Origin: Apoderus coryli
Lineage: Eukaryota; Arthropoda; Insecta; Coleoptera; Attelabidae
Length of the DNA: 64,000 nucleotides
Reading direction: 5' to 3'
Assembly: GCA_911728435.2 (NCBI GenBank)
Contig: OU452207.1
Span: 14,967,682-15,031,681, forward strand
Shown here: positions 4,278-41,475 of the stretch, piece after piece
Layout of the letters: every line of letters starts with the position of its first letter
Position numbering within the stretch: the first letter of the stretch is position 1
Notes under the pieces: model-generated
The model's database searches: none
Seen by the model: only the letters and a program-made list of their open reading frames with translations
Told to the model about the DNA's origin: nothing
Translations under genes and position numbers: made by a program

Positions 4278-4540
4278 ATTTCGATATCAATAAATAATTG
4301 TTTGTATTGGAAGCACCTAGCTGACAAAGCTTATATGAAAATTTCCAGTCAAAACTGATGCTTACTTATCTAAAACATAATGCAAATATACTGAACCCTA
4401 CCTCCAAAGAAGTAGATAATGTCCATAGTGTCAAATTATAACATAAATCAATCTGTCATTATAATTATGGTGTACTAAACTGTCTATAGTAAAACAACGT
4501 AAATATAATAATTTCCAAAATTATTACTGTAAAAGACAGA

Positions 4541-4718
4541 ATGGAAATTGAAAAAGAATATATACCGGAAGGTAAGTGTACAATTATATAAAATAGGGTT
4601 ATCACCGTACACTTTGATGAAATTATTTACAATAATATATAATAACATTCCGCAACGACTTAACTGACCATTATTTGTAGGAAAAACTCAAAATATGATA
4701 CCAAGAGAGAGGATATAG
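4541..4718 (+). other. Possible two-exon mini-ORF, broken (copy 1)
   Basis: ATG at 4541 opens 31 bases (MEIEKEYIPEG) that end at a good donor (G|GTAAGT). An acceptor TTTGTAG lies about 100 bp later, and the joined frame is maintained until a TAG at 4716-4718. The equivalent in copy 3 runs further, to a stop at 35172. I do not recognise the peptide. The good splice sites may be chance in AT-rich DNA. Confidence 0.25.
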
Positions 4719-4844
4719 AAAATAAATAACATGGCTCATTTTCCACATTAGTTTTACAACATATATGCAAACATTGGGGTCATAAAAGGAGAGGTTTTAG
4801 TTCATGTGTTACCAGTTACGAATGAGGAATAAAACTATGAATCT

Positions 4845-7066: not shown

Positions 7067-7124
7067 TATGTACTTGTGTCAGCAAGTAGGTTGTTAATCT
7101 TTTTGTCATAGTCCGTTATAGTTT
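7067..7124 (-). pseudogene. PLE coding fragment between pogo and gypsy insertions
   Basis: On the minus strand this short stretch encodes DKKINNLLADTSRY, the segment just before YKQIKNDPTN in a PLE reverse transcriptase. It is continuous with 16359 onward once the gypsy element is removed. The last four bases (GTTT, 7121-7124) are the left copy of the gypsy target duplication. Copies 2 and 3 have 12 extra bases here. Confidence 0.75.
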
Positions 7125-14711: not shown

Positions 14712-16358
14712 TGTGACGTTATTTTTACTTGCAATAAAAAAAATGATGTTAAACAAAGATTTTTTTGGTGACACAAAAACACGGCAGCTCTTCGCCTGGT
14801 GGCACTAGGTCGAAGGTCGAAGAATCTTTCTTGGTTATTCTTCCTTGTTGAGCGCGACTTGTTTTTTTATAGGGTTAAAACAAGAAACCCTTTCAACAAT
14901 TTAAGAAAACACACTAGTTATACCTATAAATTTATTCAAACCTTCATCAAGTTTATTGATAAAACGAAAAGTAATAACCGGAGAAAATATATCAGTTAAG
15001 CTATGTAAAAAGGATTTTAAAATTTCATCATTTAAATTACTATCATGTGCACAATTATTAATTACTCATTCTTGAAATTCATGAATTTCACTTACACAGT
15101 GAGCCAATAAATTAAATAATCTGTGAATCATTAATCAATCAATTCGCATTTTGTTTTCACAAAATTTAACTAATAGTTTTAATAATACTACTAAATGGGT
15201 TAGGTTAGTAATAAAAAAAAATCTGGCCTTTATTTTTTCTTCGTACTGAATGCTCCACAGGTTGACGGAGTGAGGTGAAGATTACGTGGTGAAAGGTAGT
15301 GATCAATGTTATAATACGTATCCTTCGGTATTATCACGTAGAACCGTAGTTAAACTTTCGGTAATCCAAAAAAAAAACCCTGGGAAGAAATTATTTATGT
15401 AAAAAAACCTTGATAGAATTTCTATGTTTTTTTTTTATTTACGTACCCCAGTAAGCAGCTGGGGGTATGTGAACAGGAAACGCTTGTACAAAATCCAAGT
15501 AGGATAGAATGAAGTTTGTATAAGTCAAACAAACACTATAACAAAATTAGAAAGACCAATAAGTTTGGGTTTTTTGAAAAAAAAGGAGGATAAAGTACTT
15601 ACATGTTGTATAAAACCACTACACAACAATCTCGAAAACTGGATATAATATATGGTGATACATAACTGAACCGGTATATTATGTTTGTTAAATTTCACCG
15701 ATTGATTATCAATTTCAAATCCCAAAAACTTGGAACAGAACCAAATGAAACATTAACTTTTTCAAATCTATTGCCACCGAAGACTCTACCAGTAATGAAT
15801 TGTCCTAGCGAAAAGGTAAGGTCAATTTGTTGTTTGTGTGAATGTCGCATGTATTTTGGAAGTGCGTACGGACTTTACCACTAGCGAGAAAAAGAGAGAA
15901 TATATTTATATTGAGAGTTGTATTGGATAGTGAAAGAAAGTGTTCATTAAAGGAAATCTGTAATTAGAAATGTTACAGGTAGTATTCAGAAGATGATACA
16001 GGTAGGTTCCAAAGTATAGGTAAGTATTAAAGTAATCATTAGTTATATTATTTATTTGTTTATAAATCAGTAAATATTTACGTTTATTACTTAACTTAAT
16101 TAATTTATCTTTCAGGTTTTTTGAAGCGCATAAAAGATGACAAAGAAGTCACCTAAAGGCTCAGATATATAAGCAATAACTGACATTATATAAGATATAA
16201 TAATTAAATGTATATTTATATTTTAGGGTTTGAATATCGTAAGTAAGTTATTTTATTTTTTTGTTGTTCTATATAGTACTCAATAAACAACTAAATTAAA
16301 TTTAATAAAATTATTCTAGTTTGCTTTGTTTTAAAACATTACAAAAAAAAATGCTACA
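14712..16358 (-). repeat. 5' LTR of the gypsy element
   Basis: 1647 bp, matching 7125-8774 throughout with roughly 15-20 substitutions and a few homopolymer length differences by eye. It should carry the promoter for minus-strand transcription. Confidence 0.9.
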
Positions 16359-16843
16359 GTTTGGATTTTGTTTTAAGAATATCTTAGTTTTTTTTAATTT
16401 TTTAAAAAGAGTTTTTGACTCATTATTAAGATTTTGTTGGGCGAATCGGTTTTTAAAAATTCGTTATGATATTTGCACATTTTTATCGTATGTCGTCTTT
16501 GGTTTTTGTAGTAAAATTTTCTATTGCGTATTCTATATTAGTAAGGATTTCTGGAACAGGGATTTCAGTGTGTTTTTTCAAGAGATGCTGCAAAATTTGG
16601 AGCTAAGCTTAGTATTTCTAATACTTCATTAGGTATTTGTAAGTCTGTTAAATTCTCCACCCAGTCTGAGATTAAATTAGGAGCATTACTGTTATTTGGG
16701 TGTTGTTCAGCAACATGTTGATTTTTCCAATATTGGACCATGAGAAAAATGAAAAACACAAATTCGATTTCACTAAAACAAAGATCCTGAAAACTGAAAA
16801 TAACACTAAAAAAAGGGAAACATACGGAACAATTTTTATCCAA
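16359..16843 (-). pseudogene. PLE N-terminal coding region, copy 1
   Basis: Read on the minus strand, the ORF 16843 to 16565 ends with NLTDLQIPNEVLEILSLAPNFAAS, the pattern at the start of PLE reverse transcriptases (a segment ending LSLGPNF-like). It continues in other frames with an EYAIENFTTKTKDDIR-like segment toward 16380. Several indels break it. With the gypsy element removed it joins 7067-7120 and then the RT at 4845-5831, on the other side of the pogo insertion. The first half of the 92-residue ORF is hydrophobic and probably not genuine coding. Confidence 0.65.
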
Positions 16844-17762
16844 AAAAATCCTAATAGCGTTAACTCAAAAACTGACACAAAATCGCTAAGCAAAGTCTCA
16901 TTATTAAACTAAAAACCAAAACGTTAACAATCCTTTCTATTTTCTTAGCTAAAACACACTGTAACAATAATCATCCTTCTTATTTAATTTCACCACCCTA
17001 TACATCTAAAAGTGCGATAGTTTTAAATATGTTTTTTGTTGCTTTCATTCCAAATCTAAACAGATAGCTAAACCGTAGAAAGATTCTAATACAAGGAAAA
17101 TATTTTAAATGCAAAATAATTATTATTAATACTGGTATGTACAGAAATGAATATTTTATTATGAATTTTAATATTTTGTAATTATCATCAACCAATTAAT
17201 TTGACAATAATTGTATAACCATGCAAGTCTTTTTTCTACATTATGTGAATGTTTCGTTATTTTCTTTGTGGTAAGTTTTACTATATTGTATCTTTGTTTT
17301 TGAAATGTTGTTATTGACCACATGACTTGTAATTTTTAGATTGAAAAAGACTTGAACTTTCAGTCGAAACGTCTCAAAATAAAATTTTAAACAAAAAATG
17401 GGATGATATTTCATGTTTTACTATCCAGACTTGAATCCAAGAATCCGAAATCAAGAATATAAATATTGGAAGTCTAAGAAAATTTAATTACGAAGAAAAA
17501 ATATATATATATATAAATTTTAGATAAATGACAAAAAGGTCATACAATTATTGCTTTCTTTCTTTTTAGTTTCTTTGACCTTTTTTTATAAGTTTTAGGG
17601 ATTTTTTTTCTTGATTTTAGGTCAATAACTACTTATATTTTATATAGTAATGTATTTTTCTTGAACCTTGTTACAGTTTTTTTATTCTTTTCCTTTCTTG
17701 GGATTTAAGGTTCTTATAAGCAAATTTTTTTTCCTTTCGAAATATGTTTATTTCATGTCAAA
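16844..17762. other. PLE 5' flank, non-coding
   Basis: No credible ORF. Conserved with 22290-23203 and 38080-39224. It includes a plus-strand hammerhead-like stretch at 17333-17385, a TATATA run at about 17503-17516 (site of the 223-bp insertion in copy 3), and T-rich tracts. Confidence 0.6.
17333..17385 (+). ncRNA. Degenerate hammerhead-like motif, plus strand (copy 1)
   Basis: GACT-loop-AGTC forms a stem II, followed by GAAACGTC, the sequence typical of PLE hammerheads with a 2-bp stem III and cleavage after C. The upstream core reads TTGAAAA instead of CTGATGA, so cleavage is unlikely. Copies are at about 22780-22830 and 38560-38605. Confidence 0.3.
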
Positions 17763-17805
17763 GTATGTACAAAATTTCGGCTTATTCGCCTTCCTCAGGT
17801 ACATC
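17763..17805 (-). ncRNA. Hammerhead-like motif in PLE 5' region (copy 1)
   Basis: Minus strand: ATGTAC, CTGAGGA, GGC-loop-GCC, GAAA, TTTT, GTACAT. Stem I (ATGTAC/GTACAT, 6 bp) and stem II (GGC/GCC) are intact. The core has CTGAGGA where hammerheads have CTGATGA, and stem III is nearly absent. It lies upstream of the PLE N-terminus on the same strand, where PLE pseudo-LTR hammerheads are known to sit. Confidence 0.4.
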
Positions 17806-18427
17806 TCGTTTCTAAAAAAATTTTTTTTTGTAAACAAAATTAAAAATAATCAAGTAAGTGGTACATTTACACTACTTCACAACAACATTCAGTGTAAAAA
17901 GGTAATATATATAACACATACACAATTACATATAATATTCTTAATTATTTTCTATTTTTTTTGTTTGTATTTGTTTTTACCTTACCAACATCGCATGATT
18001 CTGTGGAATTTTTGGTAGTATACCACTTTTAGTAGGTATTTTGTTTGAATGAAAATTTTTATTCAATAGAATTTCAATTTTATAAGGAAAAGCCATATTA
18101 TGGAATTTGATGTCAATAACACACTGAAAATAAATTAACAACAAGAAAATACAACTATAAACAATGTGACAAACAAATATTTAAAAAATATATAAAAAAA
18201 TTAATTAAAATAGTGCCTTAATTTAATAAATAATAAATAAATTAATAAACAGTGCCTAAATCATCGTTTTTTTCAGTTTAGTTGCTTGGTTATAATAGTT
18301 CTCTTTGAGAAAAGAAAATACATTTAATATCGGCAATGCGCCCATCTCCACATCACTGTATCCTTCTACTATCGTTAAAAAGCAGTGATGTCTGTAAAAC
18401 ATTAAAGTTACAAGTGACTGGACAGTC
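17806..18427. other. Non-coding part of repeated block
   Basis: AT-rich, no credible ORF on either strand. Shared with 23247-23861 and 39267-39888. The last about 60 bp (from AAAAAGCAGTGATGTCTG) are also the left end of the blocks at 32820 and 42749. Confidence 0.6.
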
Positions 18428-18644
18428 ATGGACTGTTTTAATGACTTATTTAGTGGGGACAATACTACGTGGCAGGCTCCACACCAGCAGCAAGTAGGCC
18501 AACAACATGGATTGGTGGTGAATACTGATATTCTTCGGGCCGATGATCATAATTTATCGTCGACCGACTCAACCACTCCTCCACCACAAAGTAGTGGAGT
18601 GTTGTTGAACGAAGAAGACCGGCGCTGCGTAAACAGTATTCGAG
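18428..18644 (+). CDS. Unrecognised exon-like ORF, copy 1 of five
   Basis: 72 codons starting MDCFNDLFSG, rich in Gln, Thr, Ser and Pro (QQQVGQQ, STTPPPQSSG) and ending NSIRG at a possible splice donor (CGAG|GTAAAT). The composition is unlike the neighbouring transposon genes and resembles a low-complexity exon of a host regulatory protein, but I do not recognise it. The frame happens to run on to 18919 through mariner-end sequence. It may be a captured host exon carried with the mariner remnant to its right. The reverse strand also has a 67-codon ORF over the same bases. Confidence 0.35.
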
Positions 18645-18734
18645 GTAAATTAGTATTCTTTGACTCAAGTCAGTCTTTAAGTTTATTTTTAATTAAAGAA
18701 AGTCTCTATAGAGAAGCAATCCAACCCATACAGG

Positions 18735-19840
18735 GTTATTCACGCTTTATGGCGTGGTATATTGTGGCCAAGCTACTTGACTTTGAAATTTTTTTTTATT
18801 GGACGTGTGGGCATCTACTATGGCTACTTTTTAAAATTGGTTTCATATTATACAGGGTTATAAAGTATCAAAGTTATGTTTTTTTAAATGAAATCCCCTG
18901 TATATTATTGCACTTTTAGACCCTCTGATCAAATTAAGTGTCAGTTTCATTAAGGTTTATAATACCTAAACCTTAACGTTTTTTAAATAAATTGAATTTT
19001 GTCCAAATCTAGCATAATTTTCATCTTTCAAATAGTTAGGAAATATTTAAGTCATGTTGAATCTCGTGATGATAATGAGGCGGGGCTCCATCTAATTGAA
19101 ACCACATGGTTGTTCTCCTGTTTAAAGGAATTTCCTCTAATAATACAGGAAGTTGGTGTAGAAGAAAATCGAGAAACAAAACAACAAAATTGGAGTCCTA
19201 TTAAATATGGGTCCAATGTTCCACCCTACACATTAATGGACCGCCTATTTTGATTGCTGATAATTCTGTATTCATGCGGATTTGAGTCAGAATAATAATG
19301 GTAGTTGTGTCTGTTCACGAGACCATTGTTGTGAAATGTACATTCGTCACTAAATAACACATTATCAAAAAATATTTCATGTGCTGCCACTTCATCTTAC
19401 ACCCAAATGCAAAATTCAATTCTATTGTCAAAATCATTTCCAGAAAGCTTTTGACAAAGCTGAATTTTAAAAGCATAAAATCTATGTTTGCCTGACTAAT
19501 ATTGGTGTTTTTGGATATCTGATTTTGACTAATATTAGGATTTTCGATAACTGAACCGACTATAGCAAAAATAGTTTCTTCATTTTCGGAGACAATTTTT
19601 CTTGTAACGTATTTCTTATAGCTAACACGTCCAGTTTCCTTAAACTGATTTAATAGTCTCTCAAAATCAGCTGGACTTGGATGATTTCGTATGGGAAATC
19701 TTTGAGCATAAACTCGAGAAGCCAATAAAGAATTTTGATGACATTCTCCAAGGATTAATATCATAATCAATACGTTCTTCTTTTTGATGAGAAAGAGAAA
19801 TCGTACTATAAAATTAGTATCGAAAAGCAAATCTCGATGA
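18735..19840 (-). pseudogene. mariner-like transposase with DUF4817-type domain, copy 1
   Basis: The minus-strand coding runs from about 19830 down. The N-terminal helix-turn-helix (ECHQNSLLASRVYAQRFP, NHPSPADFERLLNQFKETGRVS) matches the DUF4817 domain attached to Tc1/mariner-type transposases in arthropods. Next is LFSDECTFHNNG (first Asp, near 19340), then the FQLDGAPPHY motif (second Asp, near 19090). The third catalytic acidic residue and the C-terminus are missing, and several frameshifts are present. The left end has ACAGGG-type terminal sequences at 18738 and 18851. No opposite terminal repeat is visible beyond 19840, so the element is incomplete. Confidence 0.8.
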
Positions 19841-19906
19841 TAAAATTTCCATTTCCAAATTGATTTCTGTCTCTTGCCTGTAGGTCCATATTTTGAATGC
19901 TTCAAG

Positions 19907-20477
19907 TTGTTCAATTGAGCTCGATATTGCCGCACCCATGGCGCATCCATCGGTTTGTTTGAAATATTTGTCTTGGTATGTGAAATACATAGAAGTTAGG
20001 GTAAAGTCTATGGCTGCTAAAAATTCGGTGAGTGGGATATCTGTGTGTTGTGTTCCATTGGTTTTCTATTAGGGTTTTGGCTTTATCTATTGGGGTTTTT
20101 GTATATAAAGATATTCTCTCCTCTAAGGACACCAGAATGTAGTAGTTATCGGGAAATGTTACATTGTTTATTTTGTTTTTAAAGTCCCATGAGTCTTTTA
20201 TGTAGTATTCATTTGGGTTTATGGCATTTTTTAAGATTTCATTAAGGAATTTAGAAAGTTTTTCGAAAGGAGATTGGATACAAGAAACTATAGGTCTTAA
20301 GGGGATGTTTTCTTTGTGTAATTTGGGGAGGCCGTATATGTGAGGGTGGATGGCGTTGTGAATTTTTAGTTTTTTAGCATTTATAGGTGAAATGTACATT
20401 TTTTTCTCCCAATTGTTTATGGTTTCATTGTTCTTTCTTTGGTAAACATTTGTTGGGTCGTTCTTAATTTGTTTATA
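19907..20477 (-). pseudogene. PLE reverse transcriptase, copy 2 (truncated)
   Basis: It holds the RT fingers and palm from YKQIKNDPTN through HPHIYGLPKLHKENIPLRPIVSC, SPFEKLSKFLNEIL and DNYYILVSLEERISLYTKTPI to GAAISSSIE (frame-shifted). Unlike copies 1 and 3 the IPLRPIVSC segment is intact, so this copy keeps the ancestral state there. Everything C-terminal of GCGNIELN is lost by the deletion at 19906, including the YxDD region and linker. Confidence 0.85.
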
Positions 20478-21725
20478 AGGTAAATGGACCAGTGCCTGAC
20501 CCATTAGGGAATGTGCAGACATTATCACATTTTTATGATGTGTGAATATGTTTTTTGACATACATACCTTCATGACAGTTTTAACGGAACATCATTCTTT
20601 TAAAAAATGAGGTCTAGCTATGTATACAAAAGGGCGTTAATAAAATAAACATAATTTTTTGAATATCGGCGTATGTACCTATTCCTGACCCTAGTGAATA
20701 AAGGTTGCTCCTAAGTATGACATTATCGTAACCTTTAGTTGACCCTTGAACAAGGCTGGTGTTTTATAGTACGTTGCTGCGAATAACTCTAGGAACCTAC
20801 ATGATATAAATCGCAATTTAAATAAAAAATTAATTTGTAAATATAAAAAAAAAACATAATTTACTTCAAATTAAAAAGCATTTGCAAAAATATTTAAATT
20901 ACAAATCATATGACAAAACTTTGTGACAAATAGTGTCCTAATTCTTTGACAGTTTTATCACCTCTACGAGAAAGCACTTTGTTTCCTTTTGGATTAAGGA
21001 AAAATACAGATTCATCTGCATTGAATATTATTGTGGGATCCTGAAGAATGTCCGTCTGATCAATCGCTAATAAATGCTCATATACTTCATGTTCAGTTGA
21101 ATTGTGGTCACAGATGCTCTACTTGTTCTTAGATTCTGTGGTGTTCTCAAGCTTATATCTGGATGCCGCTTGAGAAACCATTCATACCACTTCCTACCAG
21201 GTTTATCGTGTTTACCTAAATCCTTTTTTAACTCTGTAGCTAATTTTTCTACATTTACCAGAAAATTATCTTTAGAAATAGGAAATCCTGCTTTCGTCAT
21301 ACGTCTATAAGCCGCTTGACTAGAATGACCCTCGTCAAAATAAATAAAATATTGATATCTGCTGGTTTTTTTATAGTTTTTCCTATTTACCAAGTTATAC
21401 CATGCTTATAAAATTCATCTACATCTAGCACCAAATAATAGTATGTAATCTAAAAACTGTTTTATATAACCTACCTGTTATCATGAATGGATATCGTTTC
21501 TTACACAAAGCGCGAAGACCATGACACTCTCACAATGACGGCTTTAAAACAATAGTTAACCCAGTGGTACGAACATACTCGCAATATATTTTGTTTAAGA
21601 ATAGGTTGCTACATCCCACAAAAATCGCAAGAAAACTTACAAATAATACCGTAATGCTTAATAAAACCAAATAAATGGAAATGTGTCATCTATTGGTACA
21701 GGGTCAGGTACTGGTACATTTACCT
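20478..21725 (-). mobile_element. pogo-like DNA transposon remnant, copy 2
   Basis: Same ends and same PLE target site as copy 1: AGGTAAATGGACCAGTGCCTG at the left and the complementary ACCAGTACCTGACC at the right, with TA beside each end. The identical site shows that the insertion came before the block duplication. Confidence 0.8.
20925..21393 (-). pseudogene. pogo-type transposase fragment, copy 2
   Basis: A 108-residue ORF (21393-21067) with the CENP-B/pogo DNA-binding region (AGFPISKDNF, WYEWFLKRHPDISLRTPQ), then out of frame the start of the DDE domain (FNADESVFFLNPKGN). It keeps the Trp at the WYEWFL position where copy 1 has Leu. The distal DDE domain is absent. Confidence 0.8.
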
Positions 21726-22289
21726 TATGTACCTACTTGTGTCAGCAAGTAGGTTGTTAATCTTTTTGTCATAGTCCGTGTCGGTCATAATTATAGTTTG
21801 GATTTTGTTTTAAGAATATCTTAGTTTTTTTTAATTTTTTAAAAAGAGTTTTTGACTCATTATTAAGATTTTGTTGGGCGAATCGGTTTTTAAAATTCGT
21901 TATGATATTTGCACATTTTTATCGTATGTCGTCTTTGGTTTTTGTAGTAAAATTTTCTATTGCGTATTCTATATTAGTAAGGATTTCTGGAACAGGGATT
22001 TCAGTGTGTTTTTTCAAGAGGTGCTGCAAAATTTGGAGCTAAGCTTAGTATTTCTAATACTTCATTAGGTATTTGTAAATCTGTTAAATTCTCCACCCAG
22101 TCTGAGATTAAATTAGGAGCATTACTGCTACATTTGGGTGTTGTTCAGCAACATGTTGATTTTTCCAATATTGGACCATGAGAAAAATGAAAAACACAAA
22201 TTCGATTTCACAAAAACAAAGATCCTGAAAACTGAAAACAACACTAAAAAAAGGGAAACATACGGAACAATTTTTATCCAAAAAAATCC
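21726..22289 (-). pseudogene. PLE N-terminal coding region, copy 2 (gypsy-free)
   Basis: It contains the intact empty site of the gypsy element (TATAGTTTGGATTTTG near 21793) and the same N-terminal PLE coding (MTDTDYDKKINNLLADTSRY near 21730-21790, then the LEILSLAPNF segment). It is broken by several indels. Confidence 0.7.
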
Positions 22290-23203
22290 TAATAACGCTA
22301 ACTCAAAAACTGACACAAAATCGCTAAGCAAAGTCTCATTATTAAACTAAAAACCAAAACGTTAACAATCCTTTTTTTTCTTAGCTAAAACAAACTGTAA
22401 CAATAATATCATCCTTCTTATTTAATTTCACCACCCTATACATCTAAAAATGCGATAGTTTTAAATATGTTTTTTGTTGCTTTCATTCCAAACCTAAACA
22501 GATAGCTAAACCGTAGAAAGATTCTAATACAAGGAAAATATTTTAAATGCAAAATAATTATTATTAATACTGGTATGTACAGAAATGAATATTTTATTAT
22601 GAATTTTAATATTTTGTAATTATCATCAACCAATTAATTTGACAATAATTGTATAACCATGCAAGTCTTTTTTCTACATTATGTGAATGTTTCGTTATTT
22701 TCTTTGTGGTAAGTTTTACTATATTGTATCTTTGTTTTTTGAAATGTTGTTATTGACCACATGACTTGTAATTTTTAGATTGAAAAAGACTTGAACTTTC
22801 AGTCGAAACGTCTCAAAATAAAATTTTAAACAAAAAATGGAATGATATTTCATGTTTTACTATCCAGACTTGAATCCAAGAATCCGAAATCAAGAATATA
22901 AATATTGGAAGTCTAAGAAAATTTAATTACGAAGAAAAAATATATATATATATAAATTTTAGATAAATGACAAAAAGGTCATACAATTATTGCTTTCTTT
23001 CTTTTTAGTTTCTTTGACCTTTTTTTATAAGTTTTAGGGATTTTTTTTCTTGATTTTAGGTCAATAACTACTTATATTTTATATAGTAATGTACTTTTCT
23101 TGAACCTTGTTACAGTTTTTTTATTCTTTTCCTTTCTTGGGATTTAAGGTTCTTATAAGCAAATTTTTTTTTTCCTTTCGAAATATGTTTATTTCATGTC
23201 AAA
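22290..23203. other. PLE 5' flank, copy 2
   Basis: Non-coding, collinear with 16844-17762. It carries the plus-strand hammerhead-like stretch at about 22780-22830 and an uninterrupted TATATA run near 22940. Confidence 0.6.
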
Positions 23204-23246
23204 GTACGTAAAAAATTTCGGCTTATTCGCCTTCCTCAGGTACATC
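23204..23246 (-). ncRNA. Hammerhead-like motif in PLE 5' region (copy 2)
   Basis: Same layout as at 17763. The 3' arm of stem I has changed (GTACGT then AAAAAA), weakening the 6-bp stem. The core remains CTGAGGA. Confidence 0.35.
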
Positions 23247-23861
23247 TCGTTTCTAAAAATTGTTTTTTTTTGTAAACAGAATTAAAAATAATCAAGTAAG
23301 TGGTACATTTACACTACTTCACAACAACATTCAGTGTAAAAAGGTAATATATATAACACATACACAATTACATATAATATTCTTAATTATTTTCTATTTT
23401 TTTTTTTTTTTGTATTTGTTTTTACCTTACCAACATCGCATGATTCTGTGGAATTTTTGGTAGTATACCACTTTTAGTAAGTATTTTGTTTGAATGAAAA
23501 TTTTTATTCAATAGAATTTCAATTTTATAAGGAAAAGCCATATTATGGAATTTGATGTCAATAACACACTGAAAATAAATTAACAACAAGAAAATACAAC
23601 TATAAACAATGTGACAAACAAATATTTAAAAAATATATAAAAAAATTAATTAAAATAGTGCCTTAATTTAATAAATAATAAATAAATTAATAAACAGTGC
23701 CTAAATCATCGTTTTTTTCAATTTAGTTGCTTGGTTATAATAGTTTTCTTAGAGAAATGAAAATACATTTAATATCGGCAATGCGCCCATCTCCACATCA
23801 CTGTATCGTTAAAAAGCAGTGATGTCTGTAAAACATTAAAGTTACAAATGACCGGACAGTT

Positions 23862-24078
23862 ATGGACTGTTTTAATGACTTATTTAGTGGGGACAATACT
23901 ACGTGGCAGGCTCCACACCAGCAGCAAGTAGGCCAACAACATGGATTGGTGGTGAATACTGATATTCTTCGGGCCGATGATCATAATTTATCGTCGACCG
24001 ACTCAACCACTCCTCCACCACAAAGTAGTGGAGTGTTGTTGAACGAAGAAGACCGGCGCTGCGTAAACAGTATTCGAG
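23862..24078 (+). CDS. Unrecognised exon-like ORF, copy 2 of five
   Basis: Same 72-codon sequence as copy 1, ending at the same possible donor (CGAG|GTAAAT). It is of the long type, with NLSS between the DDH and TDSTTPPP segments. The frame stays open to 24353 through mariner-end sequence. Confidence 0.35.
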
Positions 24079-24169
24079 GTAAATTATTATTCTTTGACTC
24101 AAGACAGTCGTTAAGTTTATTTTTAATTAAAGAAAGTCTTTATAGAGAAGCAATCCAACCCATACAGGG

Positions 24170-25029
24170 TTATTCACGCTTTATGGCGTGGTATATTGTG
24201 GCCAAGCTACTTGACTTTGAAATTTTTTTTTATTGGACGTGTGGGCATCTACTATGGCTACTTTTTAAAATTGGTTTCATATTATACAGGGTTATAAAGT
24301 ATCAAAGTTATGTTTTTTTAAATGAAATCCCCTGTATATTATTGCACTTTTAGACCCTCTGATCAAATTAAGTGTCAGTTTCATTAAGGTTTATAATACC
24401 TAAACCTTAACGTTTTTTAAATAAATTGAATTTTGTCCAAATCTAGCATAATTTTCATCTTTCAAATACTTAGGAAATATTTAAGTCATGTTGAATCTCG
24501 TGATGATAATGAGGCGGAGCTCCATCTAATTGAAACCACATGGTTGTTCTCCTGTTTAAAGGAATTTCCTCTAATAATACAGGAAGTTGGTGTAGAAGAA
24601 AATCGAGAAACAAAACAACAAAATTGGAGTCATATTAAATATGGGTCCAATGTTCCACCCTACACATTAATGGACCGCCTATTTTGATTGCTGATAATTC
24701 TGTATTTATGCGGATTTGAGTCAGAATAATAATGGTAGTTGTGTCTGTTTACGAGACCATTGTTGTGAAATGTACATTCGTCACTAAATAACACATTATC
24801 AAAAAATATTTCATGTGCTGCCACTTCATCTTACACCCAAATGCAAAATTCAATTCTATTGTCAAAATCATTTCCAGAAAGCTTTTGACAAAGCTGAATT
24901 TTAAAAACATAAAATCTATGTTTGCGTGACTAATATTGGTGTTTTTGGATATCTGATTTTGACTAATATTAGGATTTTCGATAACTGAACCGACTATAGC
25001 AAAAATAGTTTCTTCATTTTCGGAGACAA
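24170..25029 (-). pseudogene. mariner-like transposase remnant, copy 2 (5' truncated)
   Basis: It holds the catalytic-region sequence (LFSDECTFHNNG near 24770, FQLDGAPPHY near 24520) but stops at 25029, inside the region after the DUF4817 domain. The helix-turn-helix part is lost. An unrelated AT-rich stretch follows. Confidence 0.75.
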
Positions 25030-25430
25030 TGATAAAATTTGTTTATTGCTTGTTTTTATTGCTTGTTTTTATTGAATTTTTCAAATCCACCAAGATATAA
25101 AAATATGTTCTCTCTCGATTTGTGAAAATACTTATAGTTTTGATGATCTTTCAACGACTAAAAAAAAAGAAGTCAATATAACAGTTTGTTTTTGTTTGTA
25201 ATGCGAAATAGGAAGTTAAACGGCAAGTGTTATATATTATATTTATTTATTTTTATAATGTTTTTCATCATTTACTATTTAATCTTATTTTGATCGAGTT
25301 CAATAACCTTCCTTCGTTGCTCTCAACTAGGCACTCTGGTGTGATGTGATGCGTCAATTCAGTTATTTCAATAATAATAATTGTTATTAATGGGAATTGG
25401 TACGAGGGTCGTCCAATAAGATAGAAAAAC
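25030..25430. other. Unassigned spacer
   Basis: No ORF. A 13-bp TTTATTGCTTGTT direct repeat lies near 25045-25070. The sequence TACGAGGGTCGTCCAATAAG at 25400-25419 resembles ends of insect DNA transposons, but no partner end was found. Confidence 0.5.
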
Positions 25431-25576
25431 AAAGTATTTAATTGAGAGAGGGATGTTTTTGGCGACACCTAGCGTGAACAGGCAATATGCCGGGTGAAAC
25501 ACAGTTCACTAATGATGGCCGGACAAGAAGTAACAGTAGTCAATCAATTCTCGTGCTAGTATAAGCTCTTTGTAGA

Positions 25577-25682
25577 TGTTGGAAATTTGGGTCACACTGC
25601 CTGCCGATCACCACTGATGTGTCGTGGATCGACGAAACGGCCGTCTGGTGAAAGCATGGTAGTGTGAAACAAATTTCCAACA
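25577..25682 (+). ncRNA. Hammerhead ribozyme motif 1 (type I), probably impaired
   Basis: Stem I CACCA/TGGTG (25609-25613 with 25646-25650), core CTGATGT (25614-25620), stem II GTCG/CGAC with loop TGGAT, GAAA (25634-25637), stem III ACGG/CCGT without a loop, cleavage expected after C25645. The core should be CTGATGA; here the last A is T, which should lower activity. Stem I is extended by outer pairing, including TGTTGGAAATTT with AAATTTCCAACA. Confidence 0.85.
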
Positions 25683-25913
25683 TAACTTAAAGTCTTGTTG
25701 CTTTATGTAACAAGCAATTCTTAAATAAAGCCTCCCTGCTAGGGGATTCGGGCGCATCTAGTGTTGGCAATAGGATATAATGGAGTTGTTACTTCTTGTC
25801 CGGCCATCGTTAGTGAACTGTGTTTCACCCGGCATATTGCCTGTTCACGCTAGGTGTCGCCAAAAACATCTCTCTCTCAATCAATTCTCGTGCTAGTATA
25901 AGCTCTCTGTAAA

Positions 25914-26019
25914 TGTTGGAAATTTAGGTCACACTGCCTGCCGATCACCACTGATGAGTCGTGGATCGACGAAACGGCCGTCTGGTGGAAGCATGGTAGT
26001 GTGAAATAAATTTCCAACA
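25914..26019 (+). ncRNA. Hammerhead ribozyme motif 2 (type I), complete core
   Basis: Stem I CACCA/TGGTG (25946-25950 with 25983-25987), core CTGATGA (25951-25957), stem II GTCG/CGAC with loop TGGAT, GAAA (25971-25974), stem III ACGG/CCGT, cleavage expected after C25982. Every conserved core position of a hammerhead is present. Stem III has no loop, so a monomer could not close it; such motifs are known to act as dimers in PLE and retrozyme transcripts. Outer arms TGTTGGAAATTT and AAATTTCCAACA close the hairpin. It lies exactly 337 bp after motif 1. Confidence 0.92.
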
Positions 26020-26084
26020 TAACTTAAAGTCTTGTTGCTTTATGTAACAAGCAATTCTTAAAGTATTTAATTTTGCAATCGTTT

Positions 26085-26404: not shown

Positions 26405-26935
26405 TAAAATCGCTTGCAGACCTATTTTTGCGCATGGTAGACTCCACTAATACGTATCTGGTAGCAAAAATTTTGATAGGGAGTTAAAGAGTAAAGATGG
26501 GATTAGGTATTGAAGTATTTTGAAGTTGAAATATTGGATAGTTAGTTCAAAAACAGAGTTAGAAAATCATCATATTTCGCTTTGCAGGCATAATTTTGCG
26601 CATGGTAGTCGCCACTAAGACGTATCTGCTAGCAAAAATTTTCATAGGGTTTTAAAGACAAAAGATGGGATTAGGTAATGAAGTATTTTCAAGCGGAAAG
26701 ATTAAATAGTTAACTCATAAATTGAGTTCAAACATGGGTAATTTTTTCACATTTACAGATATATTTTTGTGGATGGAAATCTCCACTAATACGTATCTGG
26801 TAGCAAAAATTTTAATAGGGTTTTAAAGACTAAGGTTTGGATTAGGTAATAAGCTATTTTGACGCTACAACAATAAATAATTACTTAATAAATTGAGTTC
26901 AAAGTCAGCAACTTTTTCCTCATTTTGTGCTATGA
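26405..26935 (+). repeat. Three tandem ~170-bp repeats
   Basis: The motif (G)CATGGTAG followed by CCACTAA and ACGTATCTG starts at about 26432, 26600 and 26771, a spacing of 168 and 171 bp. The units match along most of their length with scattered differences. They are subterminal in the TTAA element and could be transposase-binding repeats. No function is shown. Confidence 0.75.
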
Positions 26936-34335: not shown

Positions 34336-34976
34336 AGTTATTTCGTTGTTTTTTAAGTTACCGCCTAAGCGAGTACTAACTATTATTGGCCTCTTGCCCT
34401 TTCTCAGTAGGATACAGCCAGCACAGTTTATTTTTATCAAATATAGTTACAATTTACAATGCATAGTACTACTGTTTACTTTTAACCTCCAAGCCCCATA
34501 ATATAACCTATTTATTTATGACATGAAACTAGAAGTGTCAACCAAACAAAAATAAGTGACACCAACGTTAGAAAAAAATATTACCAAATTATGAAAAACC
34601 AACGAAGCCAAAATACAAGATACTGTAGTTCCAAAAATAACGTCCACCACTATTAAGGTTAACGTTATTTTAATACTGCCAAATTATGACAAACCAACGA
34701 ATCATGATAGAAGAGATCGATATCAATAAATAATTGTTTGTATTGGAAGCACCTAGCTGACAAAGCTTATATGAAAATTTCCAGTCAAAACTGATGCTTA
34801 CTTATCTAAAACATAATGCAAATATACTGAACCCTACCTCCAAAGAAGTAGAGAATGTCCATAGTGTCAAATTATAACATAAATCAATCTGTCATTATAA
34901 TTATGGTGTACTAAACTGTCTATAGTAAAACAACGTAAATATAATAATTTCCAAAAATATTACTGTAAAAGACAGA

Positions 34977-35172
34977 ATGGAAATTGAAAAAGAATATATA
35001 CCGGAAGGTAAGTGTACAATTATATAAAATAGGGTTATCACCGTACACTTTGATGAAATTATTTGTTGACATTCCGCAACGACTTAACTTACCATTTGTA
35101 GGAAAAACTCAAAATACGATACCAAGAGAGAGGATACAGAAAATAAATAACATGGCTCATTTTCCACATTAG
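34977..35172 (+). other. Possible two-exon mini-ORF (copy 3)
   Basis: Exon 1 34977-35007 (MEIEKEYIPEG), donor G|GTAAGT, a 94-bp intron, acceptor TTTGTAG, exon 2 35102-35172, stop TAG. Spliced, it would give 33 residues. There is no recognised domain. The copy-1 version has a premature TAG. Weakly supported. Confidence 0.25.
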
Positions 35173-35265
35173 TTTTACAACATATATGCAAACATTGGGG
35201 TCATAAAAGGAGAGGTTTTAGTTCATGTGTTACCAGTTACGAATGAGGAATAAAACTATGAATCT

Positions 35266-36268
35266 TTATTCATAGTATATATATGGCAATGTTAAATATC
35301 GACCGTTTATGTTGTTAGATTGCTTTGGTGGGTTTCCATTATAAAATGTATGTATTCTTTTCGAAAAGACTGAGTTGAATAGTTTGTTGGGATAGGAATT
35401 TTTTCTTAAGACCTTTTTTGCATGTAGAATTGCTTGTTTTCTGAAATCTGTGTCTGATAGGTTAATTGCCCTGTCTGCTATTCCGATTATGACTGTTTCT
35501 TTCTGTTTAATATGATGTTGGGAATTAAAATTTAGGTATCTACCCGACCAAGTGGGTTTGGTATACCGTGATCGTACCGTTTCCTCTGTGTAGGGTGAGG
35601 TCGACAAAGTTGATTTTTAGATCTTTCTCGATTTCTAGAGTGAATTTGAGTCCAGGTTTTGAATAACAATATTTTCTAGGTCTTCCATCACCAGTTGTTT
35701 AATTGAGCTCGATATTGCCGCACCCATGGCGCATCCATCGGTTTGTTTGAAATATTTGTCTTGGTATGTGAAATACATAGAAGTTAGGGTAAAGTCTATG
35801 GCTGCTAAAAATTCGGTGAGTGGGATATCTGTGTGTTGTTTGATAGTGTTCCATTTGTTTTCTATTAGGGTTTTGGCTTTCTCTATTGGGGTTTTTGTAT
35901 ATAAAGATATTCTCTCCTCTAAGGACACCAGAATGTAGTAGTTATCGGGAAATGTTACATTGTTTATTTTGTTTTTAAAGTCCCATGAGTCTTTTATGTA
36001 GTATTCATTTTGGTTTATGACATTTTTTAAGATTTCATTAAGGAATTTAGAAAGTTTTTCGAAAGGAGATTGGATACAAGAAACTATAGGTCATTCTGTT
36101 TTCTTTGTGTAATTTGGGGAGGCCGTATATGCGAGGGTGGATGGCGTTGTGAATTTTTAGTTTTTTAGCATTTATAGGTGAAATGTACATTTTATTCTCC
36201 CAATTATTTATGGTTTCATTGTTCTTTTTTTGGTAAACATTTGTTGGGTCGTTCTTAATTTGTTTATA
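35266..36268 (-). pseudogene. PLE reverse transcriptase, copy 3
   Basis: It contains the same segments as copy 1 (IYGLPKLHKEN, SLYTKTPI, GCAMGAAISSSI, TKPTWSGRYLNF, GIADRAINLS) and the same deletion of the YxDD block. It also shares the small change that destroys IPLRPIVSC, which copy 2 lacks, so copies 1 and 3 are the closer relatives here. No GIY-YIG domain follows. Confidence 0.85.
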
Positions 36269-37514
36269 AGGTAAATAGACCAGTGCCTGACCCATTAGGG
36301 AATGTGCAGAAATTATCACATTTTTATGATGTGTGAATGTTTTTTGACATACATACCTTCATGACAGTTTTAACGGAACATCATTCTTTTAAAAAATGAG
36401 GTCTAGCTATGTATACAAAAGGGCGTTAATAAAATAAACATAATTTTTTGAATATCGGCGTATGTACCTATTCCTGACCCTAGTGAATAAAGGTTGCTCC
36501 TAAGTATGACATTATCGTAACCTTTAGTTGACCCTTGAACAAGGCTGGTGTTTTATAGTACGTTGCTGCGAATAACTCTAGGAACCTACATGATATAAAT
36601 CGCAATTTAAATAAAAAATTCATTTGTAAATATAAAAAAAAAACATAATTTACTTCAAATTAAAAAGCATTTGCAAAAATATTTAAATTACAAATCATAT
36701 GACAAAACTTTGTGACAAATAGTGTCCTAATTCTTTAACAGTTTTATCACCTCTACGAGCAAGCACTTTGTTTCCTTTTGGATTAAGGAAAAATACAGAT
36801 TCATCTGCATTGAATATTGTTGTGGGATCCTGAAAAATGTCCGTCTGATCAATCGCTAATAAATGCTCATATACTTCATGTTCAGTTGAATTGTGGTCAC
36901 AGATGCTCTACTTGTTCTTAGATTCTGTGGTGTTCTCAAGCTTATATCTGGATGCTGCTTGAGAAACCATTCATACCACTTCCTACCAGGTTTATCGTGT
37001 TTACCTAAACCCTTTTTTAACTCTGTAGCTAATTTTTCTACATTTACCAGAAAATTATCTTTAGAAATAGGAAATCCTGCTTTCGTCATATGTCTATAAG
37101 CCGCTTGACTAGAATGACCCTCGTCAAAATAAATAAAATATTGATATCTGCTGGTTTTTTTATAGTTTTTCCTATTTACCAAGTTATACCATGCTTATAA
37201 AATTCATCTACATCTAGCACCAAATAATAGTGTGTAATCTAAAAACTGTTTTATATAACCTACCTGTTATCATGAATGGATATCGTTTCTTACACAAAGC
37301 GCGAAGACCATGACACTCTCACAATGACGGCTTCAAAACAATAGTTAACCCAGTGGTACGAACATACTCGCAATATATTTTGTTTAAGAATAGGTTGCTA
37401 CATCCCACAAAAATCGCAAGAAAACTTACAAATAATACCGTAATGCTTAATAAAACCAAATAAATGGAAATGTGTCATCTATTGGTACAGGGTCAGGTAC
37501 TGGTACATTTACCT
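36269..37514 (-). mobile_element. pogo-like DNA transposon remnant, copy 3
   Basis: Ends AGGTAAATAGACCAGTGCCTG and the complement of AGGTAAATGTACCAGTACC, TA on both sides, same PLE target position as copies 1 and 2. Confidence 0.8.
36705..37182 (-). pseudogene. pogo-type transposase fragment, copy 3
   Basis: A 108-residue ORF (37182-36856) with AGFPISKDNF and WYEWFLKQHPDISLRTPQ, then the out-of-frame DDE start with FNADESVFF. It has the same truncation as the other copies. Confidence 0.8.
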
Positions 37515-38079
37515 TATGTACCTACTTGTGTCAGCAAGTAGGTTGTTAATCTTTTTGTCATAGTCCGTGTCGGTCATAATTATAGTTTGGATTTTGTTTT
37601 AAGAATATCTTAGTTTTTTTTAATTTTTTAAAAAGAGTTTTTGACTCATTATTAAGATTTTGTTGGGCGAATCGGTTTTTAAAATTCGTTATGATATTTG
37701 CACATTTTTATCGTATGTTGTCTTTGGTTTTTGTAGTAAAATTTTCTATTGCGTATTCTATATTAGTAAGGATTTCTGGAACAGGGATTTCAGTGTGTTT
37801 TTTCAAGAGGTGCTGCAAAATTTGGAGCTAAGCTTAGTATTTCTAATACTTCATTAGGTATTTGTAAATCTGTTAAATTCTCCACCCAGTCTGAGATTAA
37901 ATTAGGAGCATTACTGTTATTTGGGTGTTGTTCAGCAACATGTTGATTTTTCCAATATTGGACCATGAGAAAAATAAAAAACACAAATTCGATTTCACAA
38001 AAACAAAGATCCTGAAAACTGAAAACAACACTAAAAAAAGGAAAACATACGGAACAATTTTTATCCAAAAAAATCCTAA
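37515..38079 (-). pseudogene. PLE N-terminal coding region, copy 3 (gypsy-free)
   Basis: It contains the empty gypsy site near 37580 and the NLTDLQIPNEVLEILSLAPNF segment in the ORF 38068-37790. It is broken by indels. Confidence 0.7.
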
Positions 38080-38732
38080 TAACGTTAACTCAAAAACTGA
38101 CACAAAATCGCTAAGCAAAGTCTCATTATTAAACTAAAAACCAAAACGTTAACAATCCTTTTTTTTTCTTATCTAAAACAAACTGTAACAATAATCATCC
38201 TTCTTATTTAATTTCACCACCCTATACATCTAAAAGTGCGATAGTTTTAAATATGTTTTTTGTTGCTTTCATTCCAAACCTAAACAGATAGCTAAACCGT
38301 AGAAAGATTCTAATACAAGGAAAATATTTTAAATGCAAAATAATTATTATTAATACTGGTATGTACAGAAATGAATATTTTATTATGAATTTTAATATTT
38401 TGTAATTATCATCAACCAATTAATTTGACAATAATTGTATAACCATGCAAGTCTTTTTTCTACATTATGTGAATGTTTCGTTATTTTCTTTGTGGTAAGT
38501 TTTACTATATTGTATCTTTGTTTTTTGAAATGTTGTTATTGACCACATGACTTGTAATTTTTAGATTGAAAAAGACTTGAACTTTCAGTCGAAACGTCTC
38601 AAAATAAAATTTTAAACAAAAAATGGAATGATATTTCATGTTTTACTATCCAGACTTGAGTCCAAGAATCCGAAATCAAGAATATAAATATTGGAAGTCT
38701 AAGAAAATTTAATTACGAAGAAAAAATATATA
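38080..38732. other. PLE 5' flank, copy 3
   Basis: Non-coding, collinear with 16844-17500. It carries the plus-strand hammerhead-like stretch at about 38560-38605. Confidence 0.6.
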
Positions 38733-38955
38733 GATAACTTAATGTCTTGGGTTGATCAGCAAATATTTTTGATTAAAACTCTTTTACGTTATGCCAAGCT
38801 TTCGATATATTTTTATATCTTCCTCGGGGCTACAAATATAAAAGTAAGCTAAGTATAAATATATATAAAATTTAAAAATATGTTTACCTTAGTATACGCG
38901 GCAAGTTTTACATTAGTAAAAATAATATAAATTGTAAATTAAAGAACATTAACTT
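38733..38955 (-). mobile_element. 223-bp hammerhead-like short insertion
   Basis: Absent from copies 1 and 2, which have an uninterrupted TATATA run here. AAAAAATATATA lies on both sides (38721-38732 and from 38956), a likely 12-bp target duplication. On the minus strand, GCC, CCGAGGA, GATATA-AAAA-TATATC, GAAA, GCTT, GGC forms a hammerhead-like fold with a strong stem II but a changed core (CCGAGGA for CTGATGA). It is probably a short non-autonomous retroelement mobilised by PLE-type machinery. Confidence 0.55.
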
Positions 38956-39224
38956 AAAAAATATATATATATATAAATTTTAGATAAATGACAAAAAGGT
39001 CATACAATTATTGCTTTCTTTCTTTTTAGTTTCTTTGACCTTTTTTTATAAGTTTTAGGGATTTTTTTTCTTGATTTTAGGTCAATAACTACTTATATTT
39101 TATATAGTAATGTATTTTTCTTGAACCTTGTTACAGTTTTTTTATTCTTTTCCTTTCTTGGGATTTAAGGTTCTTATAAGCAAAATTTTTTTTTCCTTTC
39201 GAAATATGTTTATTTCATGTCAAA

Positions 39225-39266
39225 GTACGTACAAAATTTCGGCTTATTAGCCTTCCTCAGGTACAT
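39225..39266 (-). ncRNA. Hammerhead-like motif in PLE 5' region (copy 3)
   Basis: Same as at 17763, with stem I arms GTACGT/GTACAT and stem II GGC-TAATAA-GCC. The core is CTGAGGA. Confidence 0.35.
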
Positions 39267-39888
39267 CTCGTTTCTAAAAATTGTTTTTTTTTGTAAACAG
39301 AATTAAAAATAATCAAGTAAGTGGTACATTTACACTACTTCACAACAACATTCAGTGTAAAAAGGTAATATATATAACACATACACAATTACATATAATA
39401 TTCTTAATTATTTTCTATTTTTTTTTTGTATTTGTTTTTACCTTACCAACATCGCATGATTCTGTGGAATTTTTGGTAGTATACCACTTTTAGTAGGTAT
39501 TTTGTTTGAATGAAAATTTTTATTCAATAGAATTTCAATTTTATAAGGAAAAGCCATATTATGGAATTTGATGTCAATAACACACTGAAAATAAATTAAC
39601 AACAAGAAAATACAACTATAAACAATGTGACAAACAAATATTTAAAAAATATATAAAAAAATTAATTAAAATAGTGCCTTAATTTAATAAATAATAAATA
39701 AATTAATAAACAGTGCCTAAATCATCTTTTTTTTCAATTTAGTTGCTTGGTTATAATAGTTTTCTTAGAGAAAAGAAAATACATTTAATATCGGCAATGC
39801 GCCCATCTCCACATCACTGTATCCTTCTACTATCGTTAAAAAGCAGTGATGTCTGTAAAATATTAAAGTTACAAGTGACTGGACAGTT

Positions 39889-40101
39889 ATGGACTGTTTT
39901 AATGACTTATTTAGTGGGGACAATACTACGTGGCAGGCTCCACACCAGCAGCAAGTAGGCCAACAACATGGATTGGTGGTGAATACTGATATTCTTCGGG
40001 CCGATGATCATAATTTATCGTCGACCGACCCAACCACTCCTCCACCACAAAGTAGTGGAGTGTTGTTGAACGAAGAAGACCGGCGCTGCGGATATTCGAG
40101 A
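39889..40101 (+). pseudogene. Unrecognised exon-like ORF, copy 4 of five (damaged)
   Basis: Long type, but a short deletion after DRRCG removes part of the NSIRG end, changes the frame and alters the possible donor (GAGATAAAT). The ORF stops after 71 codons. Confidence 0.35.
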
Positions 40102-40189
40102 TAAATTAGTATTCTTTGACTCAAGTCAGTCTTTAAGTTTATTTTTAATTAAAGAAAGTCTTTATAGAGAAGCAATCCAACCCATACAG

Positions 40190-40571
40190 GGTTATTCACG
40201 CTTTATGGCGTGGTATATTGTGGCCAAGCTACTTGACTTTGAAATTTTTTTTTTATTGGACGTGTGGGCATCTACTATGGCTACTTTTTAAAATTGGTTT
40301 CATATTATACAGGGTTATAAAGTATCAAAGTTATGTTTTTTTAAATGAAATCCCCTGTATATTATTGCACTTTTAGACCCTCTGATCAAATTAAGTGTCA
40401 GTTTCATTAAGGTTTATAATACCTAAACCTTAACGTTTTTTAAATAAATTGAATTTTGTCCAAATCTAGCATAATTTTCATCTTTCAAATAGTTAGGAAA
40501 TATTTAAGTCATGTTGAATCTCGTGATGATAATAAGGCGGAGCTCCATCTAATTGAAACCACATGGTTGTT
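40190..40571 (-). pseudogene. mariner-like remnant, copy 4 (3' end only)
   Basis: It contains the terminal ACAGGG motifs and the FQLDGAPPHY region near 40540, then breaks at 40571 where errantivirus gag begins. Confidence 0.7.
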
Positions 40572-40574
40572 CTC

Positions 40575-41475
40575 CAACTTAATTAATTAGACCAAATAAA
40601 AAGTTCCGCCGTGGACGAGGGTCTTCTTCTTCAGACGACGTTGTTTATTCACCTCTTCGCTCAACAAAATCAATCTCTTGTCAGCCGACACCTCTACAAA
40701 TCCTAGTTGCCTTTACACATTCGCTGTTTTGGCTGATTCTGTATTGTACCAGGGTTAAGATTTTTAGGGCATTAAAGATCGACTTTCGTATACATATAGC
40801 CATAGGAAAAGCGGAAGCAATGGTCGGCAACCGCATGGAATTAAACAATTGGGATCTTGTTAAAAATGCCCTTAAACAATGTTTCTCAGACAGAAGAGAT
40901 TTGGATTGTTTATTCCAAGAATTAACAAGAACACGCCCTTATAAAAATGAACATTTAATAAATTTTGGTAGTAGATTACAGTTATTACGCAGTCCAGTAG
41001 TTCAAAGAATTAGCAATGACACAGATTTAACACACGAAGCAAAAGTTTGTCAACTTGGTGGTGTTCTCAGAAATAACATGCACATTAAGAAATCCGAATC
41101 TTTAGAGAACGCAATGGCGTACGTAACAGAATTTGAAAATTTCGATAGATTGTATGGTAATTTAAATTTCGACCACAAATCTCAAAATCACTCTAATCAA
41201 TTAATTCGTCCAAAGATACCTATTCAAAATCAAAACATTCAACCCTCGTACTATCAGGTTTTCAGAGACCTCAAAATTTCAATAATTTTATGTCTACTGC
41301 AAATCGCAACTTTAATAACACAAATCAACACTTTTCGACAAAACCAGCATTTCCAAGTCAACCAATAAACGTTAGACCTATACCAAACCCAAATACAAGG
41401 TATCCAACTAATCGAGAAGTATTTGGTCAACCACAAAACGTTTTTAAACAGACACTGGCAGTTCAAGATCAATAA
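40575..41475 (+). pseudogene. Errantivirus gag (copy E2)
   Basis: Uninterrupted by the TTAA element: ORF 40820-41368 reads MVGNRMELNNWDLVKNALKQ, then DLDCLFQELTRTRPYKNEHL, LGGVLRNNMHIKKSESLENA and an Asn/Gln-rich tail. The CDKTALNTFIAGC segment seen in E1 is deleted. The gag end (NVFKQTLAV) is fused by deletion to protease, removing the protease start. Confidence 0.75.

Follow-up and report, generated by a model that had tools for sequence, protein, structure and literature searches.

Head-to-head insertion of a hammerhead retrozyme with two fixed end sites in the genome of Apoderus coryli

Plant LTR retrozymes are non-autonomous elements that carry a hammerhead ribozyme and produce circular RNA, as is proposed here for an element of the beetle Apoderus coryli. 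Unlike that element they have a type III hammerhead, an LTR, PBS and PPT, and 4-bp target-site duplications (TSDs), according to passages of PMC7229834. The non-LTR retrozymes of animals, as described in the same passages, resemble the present element in their type I hammerhead with a conserved core, tandem units (170-400 nt there), low GC content, TSDs of more than 4 bp when present, lack of LTR, PBS and PPT, weak palindromic stem III (axolotl) and the presence of Penelope-like elements (PLEs) in the host genome (PMC7229834). In amphibian retrozymes with such a weak palindromic stem III, cleavage was better as dimers, and retrozymes, their RNA circles and a suggested mobilisation by PLEs have already been published (PMC7229834, in part). 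PLEs with a GIY-YIG endonuclease, a pLTR and a tail share further features with the A. coryli element, namely head-to-head copies, partial tandems, AT-rich targets, a type I hammerhead and two reverse-transcription start sites, which in PLEs bound the tail (passages of PMC3846280 and PMC11167929). Head-to-head PLE copies were attributed to antisense self-priming (PMC3846280, in part), while recent in vitro work, as excerpted, linked the PLE tail to two start sites and found that the PLE enzyme cuts and extends both target strands (PMC11167929).

The locus described here lies in a 64,000-nt stretch of the A. coryli genome (C16:14967682-15031681), referred to below as the window. Two hammerheads 337 nt apart were found inside a single 616-bp insertion at 25444-26059, flanked on the left (25431-25443) and on the right (26060-26072) by the 13-bp TSD AAAGTATTTAATT. 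The left part of the insertion is a short inverted arm of 92 nt on the minus strand (the B-arm, 25444-25535), which is the reverse complement of 25787-25878 and has its outer end at a site termed B. It is followed at the head-to-head junction by a 4-nt filler, GTAG (25536-25539), and then by a plus-strand arm of 520 nt (the A-arm, 25540-26059), equal to 1.54 laps of a 337-nt unit, with its outer end at site A (CAAGCAATTCTT). One complete unit occupies 25646-25982 on the plus strand, between the two expected cleavage sites. The sequence-only reading had correctly recognized a hammerhead and a 337-nt unit, in keeping with cleavage sites 337 nt apart, but its span of 25914-26019 corresponds to the second ribozyme with its long stem I, and the inverted arm, the TSD and the two-ended structure of the 616-bp element had escaped it. 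An empty site at C17:13461974-13462187 matched the joined flanks end to end without the insert (87%) and has the target once, with one mismatch; it is missing 14 nt abutting the target on the left, including the target's first base, and 12 nt just to the right. No stop-to-stop frame of 110 aa, and so no ORF for a reverse transcriptase (RT) or GIY-YIG endonuclease, was found in the 616 bp. As a circle, the unit at 25646-25982 had a predicted energy of -107.4 kcal/mol (z -4.9), and none of 100 shuffled sequences was equally low. Directly downstream of the insertion, about three tandem copies of a 168-171-bp repeat were seen at 26417-26903.

The core of the second ribozyme (25951-25982, plus strand) reads CACCA-CTGATGA-GTCG(TGGAT)CGAC-GAAACGGCCGTC-TGGTG, exactly as previously given; every core base is intact, the extended stem I spans 25913-26020 and cleavage is predicted after C25982. 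The first core (25614-25645, plus strand) reads CTGATGT, with A9 changed to T, has an extended stem I at 25576-25683 and would be cleaved after 25645. Since the upstream ribozyme has lost A9, the window locus is probably a decayed copy; its units differ at 6 positions in 186 nt, as in an older locus. The paired change of 25589G-25670C versus 25926A-26007T was considered as selection within the locus and rejected because both forms are family variants (G in 5 and C in 2 of 39 majority units, window included in the latter). The Rfam hammerhead model RF00163 matched 25945-25988 at 32.3 bits (E 2.5e-5 in a 4-kb search, 4e-4 in the 64-kb window) and the first core at 29.8 bits (E 2.6e-3 in the 64-kb window). 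A default Rfam run lists no match in the window because 32.3 bits is below the gathering cut-off of 34, so that the covariance hit expected by the sequence-only reading was obtained with a low E-value but narrowly below threshold. Judged on its conserved core (CUGAnGA, GAAA and NUH) and three helices, the motif is a genuine type I hammerhead. The loopless 4-bp hairpin that had been proposed for stem III is, in contrast, impossible within one molecule, there being no loop. The octamer ACGGCCGT is self-complementary. A monomer could thus form at best A-U and C-G pairs closing a GGCC loop, whereas 8 bp are available between two molecules or two tandem units. Minimum-energy folds of the region, the circle and the alignment paired the core bases otherwise and did not give the hammerhead, so the evidence for the hammerhead fold is the covariance match and the conserved core, and not the energy. 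Cofolding of a ribozyme dimer returned pairings other than a double hammerhead and was not used.

A search of the 428-Mb assembly (129 contigs) for the exact core pattern gave 2163 matches (1068 + 1095), compared with none for the control pattern read backwards; the pattern had no matches in a viral contig collection or in a collection of genome contigs. With its small tandem units bearing a type I hammerhead, GC content of 0.44, TSD of more than 4 bp and interspersed copies, and with no ORF, the window element is by these features a copy of a non-LTR retrozyme, and the earlier suggestion that the type I hammerhead belongs to a small non-coding retroelement is borne out by the 337-nt unit, the TSD and the thousands of genomic cores. 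We grouped 152 matches into 40 insertions, of which 39 were fetched and L001 is the window copy; these are the best-scoring of 1567 candidates for a 523-nt query and not a random sample. Full units of the family were 335-341 nt long, and the stretch from CTGATGA to CCGTC was unaltered in the majority unit of 36 of 39 insertions, the second ribozyme of the window included.

To compare the insertions, positions were numbered around the circle from the first base after cleavage (phase 1), and both outer ends were classed by motif scan. The outer ends fell into two clusters. Site A (CAAGCAATTCT) lies at phases ~78-84 and site B, a CATC with pyrimidines after it, at ~233-240; the two are separated by ~158 and 179 nt around the circle. 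In a predicted fold of the 336-nt circle (-110.6 kcal/mol), site A is unpaired directly after a CTTGTT/AACAAG hairpin, and the B stretch is unpaired too. Among the 40 best-scoring insertions, 27 had one A-type and one B-type end, none had two B ends, one (L042) had two A ends and 12 had at most one classed end. Hence 27 of the 28 insertions classed at both ends have one end of each type, a regularity that we call the one-of-each rule. The exception, L042, is A+A by motif, but its left end lies ~20 nt past A and it has no TSD; L045, with neither end classed, has a variant A motif on the left. L042 and the 12 others (13 of 40) fall outside the two-ended scheme as read. Two-ended copies have a minus arm on the left and a plus arm on the right, a head-to-head order that points the 3' sides of the unit to the outside. 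For neighbours no more than 1.5 kb apart among the first 100 core matches listed on C1, the orientation was minus-plus in 14 cases, plus-plus in 9, minus-minus in 8 and plus-minus in none. In LINE-1 twin priming, the second target strand primes on the RNA and yields an inverted arm, as a minority outcome and with no fixed second site. Here, by contrast, this is the commonest mapped structure, the second site is fixed and the arms extend over several laps. Animal non-LTR retrozymes were described, in the passages cited, as tandem dimers to multimers (PMC7229834), compared with 27 of 40 insertions here that are head-to-head with two fixed end sites.

All 27 of the A+B insertions were flanked by TSDs of 10-16 bp (12 bp in 13, 13 bp in seven, 14 bp in five, and 10 and 16 bp in one each). 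As a control, 702 mismatched flank pairs had a common word of at least 10 bp in 31 cases and of at least 12 bp in 3. The TSDs of four of the 27 (L047, L051, L059, L066) mean little because they consist of simple or repeated sequence; the TSD word of L051 occurs 17 times in its locus. In the other 12 insertions, repeats of 8-12 bp were found in seven (L032, L038, L040, L045, L046, L060, L062) and of 5-6 bp in five. The TSDs have a GC content of 12%. On the two strands of the 27 insertions, T occurred at +2 after the cut in 18 and 19 cases and at +3 in 21 and 22, compared with a local T frequency of 0.33. The cut site is thus near-symmetric, with a T-rich triplet on each strand, and fits one endonuclease cutting both strands. 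A microhomology between TSD and RNA at site A was discarded, as it is biased by the choice of the TSD boundary.

A second retrozyme family was sampled through the first ten core loci on C1 by position, of which six belonged to the second family and four to the first. The second family has a 333-nt unit that is 70% identical to the first over 392 aligned columns, with an identical 42-nt ribozyme core region, and its hammerhead scored 33.8 bits with RF00163 (cut-off 34). One A-type and one B-type end with repeats of 12-16 bp were found in L072, L076 and L079; read by eye, L075 was A+B with an imperfect duplication, and L070 was A+B, its A-arm measuring ~8 nt and its repeat 13 bp. L071 had one end. 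In the first-family loci, L077 was A+B with a 13-bp TSD, L073 and L074 had one inner junction common to both and no clear TSD, and L078 had one end. In a seven-unit alignment of both families, 14 of 75 predicted pairs were changed on both sides and still paired, and nine of these lie in the extended stem I. Five pairs were broken, in one sequence each. The ribozyme core hardly varies between the families and so offers no covariation test.

We also analyzed the PLEs of this genome. A search for homologues of the PLE RT gave, as the best of 2426 candidates, 116 places, many of them in open frames of 780-862 aa; among these places, opposite-strand neighbours within 5 kb were head-to-head in 18 of 18 cases, and one further pair was minus-minus. 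At the locus L080/L081, where both ends were read by eye, the left end is tailless, the right end has 36 nt more and the TSD is 11 bp; a GIY-YIG domain was detected at the end of the frame (28.7 bits, Pfam cut-off 22.6). The PLE end of this locus matched the retrozyme at E 0.027 at best, and a PDB search with a PLE endonuclease piece returned none. In L080 (C1:42773400-42775400), reading by eye revealed a minimal hammerhead-like motif 3' of the endonuclease frame (~42774318-42774283). It runs CTGAGGA ... GAAACGTT, its stem III is the palindrome ACGT, and it had no Rfam match at E 1. On either side of its head-to-head junction, the autonomous PLE locus C1:42774186-42784541 contains two matched segments at a distance of 3093 nt, all four with 100% identity, which suggests multi-lap copying of PLE RNA as well. 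A search with the pLTR end and tail of one PLE family identified 14 both-strand loci, every one with one tailed and one tailless outer end, and 13 further loci on one strand only, all tailed. This search scored 40 of 647 candidates, so two-tailless pairs could be missed and two-tailed pairs should have had an advantage; even so, no two-tailed pair was present among the matches listed. Within the window, PLE-like fragments at ~4.8-5.7, 19.9-20.6 and 35.3-36.1 kb are interrupted and shared no blastn match with the 800 bp around the retrozyme. The pieces tried had no Pfam match, while their homologue P0005 has an RVT_1 domain and, used as a query, leads to long open PLE frames elsewhere in the genome. 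Repeats of 1-3 kb with 96-98% identity also occur in the window (4281-7116, 19905-21779 and 34717-37568; 16355-19596, 21792-25030 and 37581-40575), some of them containing interrupted PLE RT pieces, and the window is rich in transposable elements, among them ORFs that, from their Pfam domains, we take to be of Ty3 and BEL/Pao type. Separately, four hammerhead cores at 333-nt intervals, the spacing of the second family, were found ~6 kb from a head-to-head PLE with 820-aa open frames at C1:16352232-16363442.

The explanation that we favour, and consider likely, is that PLE machinery copies one RNA circle, made by the hammerhead, through rolling-circle reverse transcription primed from both strands of the cut target. 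Transcripts of an array would self-cleave at the hammerhead, probably paired as dimers via the ACGGCCGU palindrome, and the ~336-nt monomer would be closed into a circle by a host ligase. Penelope-like machinery, presumably an RT with a GIY-YIG endonuclease, would take this circle as template. Both target strands would be cut, mostly 12-14 bp apart, at a near-symmetric site with (G/T)TT after the cut on either strand. One 3' end would then prime at site A, just 3' of the conserved hairpin, and its counterpart at site B, which lies roughly half a circle from A; each would give a cDNA arm of a few nucleotides to ~9 laps. The two arms would finally be joined head-to-head, apparently through 1-4 nt of shared sequence in 12 of 27 insertions, and fill-in of the 3' overhangs would create the TSD. 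No asymmetry of the enzyme would be needed for the one-of-each rule, provided that use of a site by one strand makes it unavailable to the other. In vitro, the PLE start sites were alike on both strands in the part of PMC11167929 cited, and offer no reason for the rule.

The RNA circle itself we infer from the ribozyme, the identity of units and the arms of several laps, and the main alternative is double-ended target-primed reverse transcription on a linear multimeric transcript that the ribozyme has left uncut. We regard this as improbable, though an mRNA of several units has been proposed for the PLE of anole, and hammerhead mutants were without effect on insertion in vitro (both in passages of PMC11167929). 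Arm lengths bear on the matter: in 25 insertions with a junction of less than 60 nt, A-arms were 0.35-8.7 laps and B-arms 0.02-7.2 laps long, and a linear template would have to account for arms of 8.7 and 7.2 laps in one insertion, for a ribozyme kept unaltered in nearly all majority units and for inner ends that are not clustered. The comparison of 112 full units from 39 insertions gave a mean of 0.45 differences for the 116 pairs within an arm (range 0-6), 0.24 for the 111 pairs across the arms of one insertion (range 0-1) and 5.44 for the 5989 pairs between insertions (range 0-16). Thirteen insertions have full units in both arms. Their maxima across arms summed to 7, as against a permuted mean of 54 and minimum of 13, and no value among 100000 permutations was this small; a difference of at most one change was, nevertheless, also seen in 33 of 156 pairings of arms from different insertions. 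Unit length was equal across arms in each of these 13 insertions, L051 being off by one base; L056 has units of 339 and 341 nt within one arm. In 21 of 27 multi-unit insertions, all units differed by at most one change, which also argues against a linear multimer, the older window copy being more diverged. Arrays are, however, homogeneous within a locus, and the transcript of a homogeneous array could also give identical units; for 15 of the 27 an identical unit occurs in another insertion, so that unit identity is weaker evidence than the means suggest. The longest two-ended retrozyme seen, L057 (C19:14637500-14642900; 7.2 + 8.7 laps), has 14 full units with at most one difference; matches of microRNA models at its junction were below cut-offs and probably reflect the inverted junction.

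Self-priming, in which the cDNA or an antisense template snaps back and copies its own arm, has been proposed for head-to-head Penelope copies with palindromic junctions in Adineta vaga (passages of PMC3846280). It predicts a mirrored arm, with a palindromic junction and the same site at both outer ends. The arms of the 27 insertions overlapped by 1-4 nt in 12, abutted in three and were separated by filler in 12. Inner phases were spread (Rayleigh P 0.20 and 0.67), and the distance between the two of an insertion averaged 86.5 nt (84 expected) and was within 20 nt in 4 of 25 (3.0 expected). As the inner phases are scattered and mutually unrelated, the junctions are not palindromes; this, together with unlike outer ends in 27 of 28 retrozyme insertions and in 14 of 14 PLE loci, makes self-priming a poor candidate. 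Some second arms are short (8 nt in L033, found by motif scan and not blastn, and 35 nt in L035, besides the 92 nt of the window copy). The filler of four insertions (L034, L058, L061, L068) is an extra 44-119-nt piece of the unit itself between the arms, resembling a template switch or a third priming. L064 is irregular, with a neighbouring piece, as is L040 (C10:17398737-17401047), with three minus-strand pieces and ~350 bp of other sequence between. An inner end lay within 3 nt of the expected cleavage site in 4 of 25 insertions, against about one of 50 ends expected by chance; this hints at run-off on cleaved RNA, which is not claimed, given chance ends and a partly palindromic motif.

Two DNA-level explanations are very unlikely, and equally so. 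Foldback elements carry inverted arrays between TSDs and so look alike, but a foldback-type DNA transposon with tandem arrays as inverted termini should have termini that end identically, whereas the retrozyme's ends differ in 27 of 28 insertions, and an RNA template is in keeping with the compensated stem I changes and with copies of a single arm. A satellite of the ordinary kind, dispersed through unequal exchange or DNA circles and with the hammerhead as a relic, would suit units that are homogeneous per locus, and newt hammerhead repeats were originally termed satellites (PMC7229834, in part), but dispersed small arrays with two fixed outer ends, TSDs at all 27 two-ended loci, an empty site and the absence of plus-then-minus neighbours among the first 100 cores listed on C1 speak against it.

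Returning to priming by both strands on an RNA circle, the retrozyme, as judged from its copies, behaves like a PLE, with head-to-head copies, a TSD and two alternative 3' ends. Compared with the PLEs in the passages of PMC3846280 and PMC11167929, the retrozyme differs in that it has no ORF, in its start sites, which are about half a circle and not 36 nt apart, and in its hammerhead, which has a long stem I with internal loops. PLE TSDs of 8-10 bp are given in the excerpted PMC3846280, versus 11 bp at the PLE locus of this genome. We lean slightly towards a more general proposal, that PLE-type RTs are two-headed, placing two cut strands on two fixed start sites of one (circular) RNA, so that every full event would consist of two head-to-head rolling-circle arms; on this view the optional PLE tail would be a trace left by the second start site, and retrozymes would be the minimal RNA that serves both. 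The open-licence papers searched, preprints excluded, yielded no account of retrozymes in head-to-head order or of a one-of-each rule. The new part is the insertion architecture; the retrozyme class itself is known. Because lap number, start site, junction and template identity are legible in each young, TSD-bounded copy, the mode of insertion can be measured in a 336-nt retrozyme. From the one-of-each rule it follows directly what a purified PLE enzyme should do, and the retrozyme offers a minimal RNA for the test. The two-ended pattern, found also in the PLEs of this genome, is useful for understanding how the PLE class moves.
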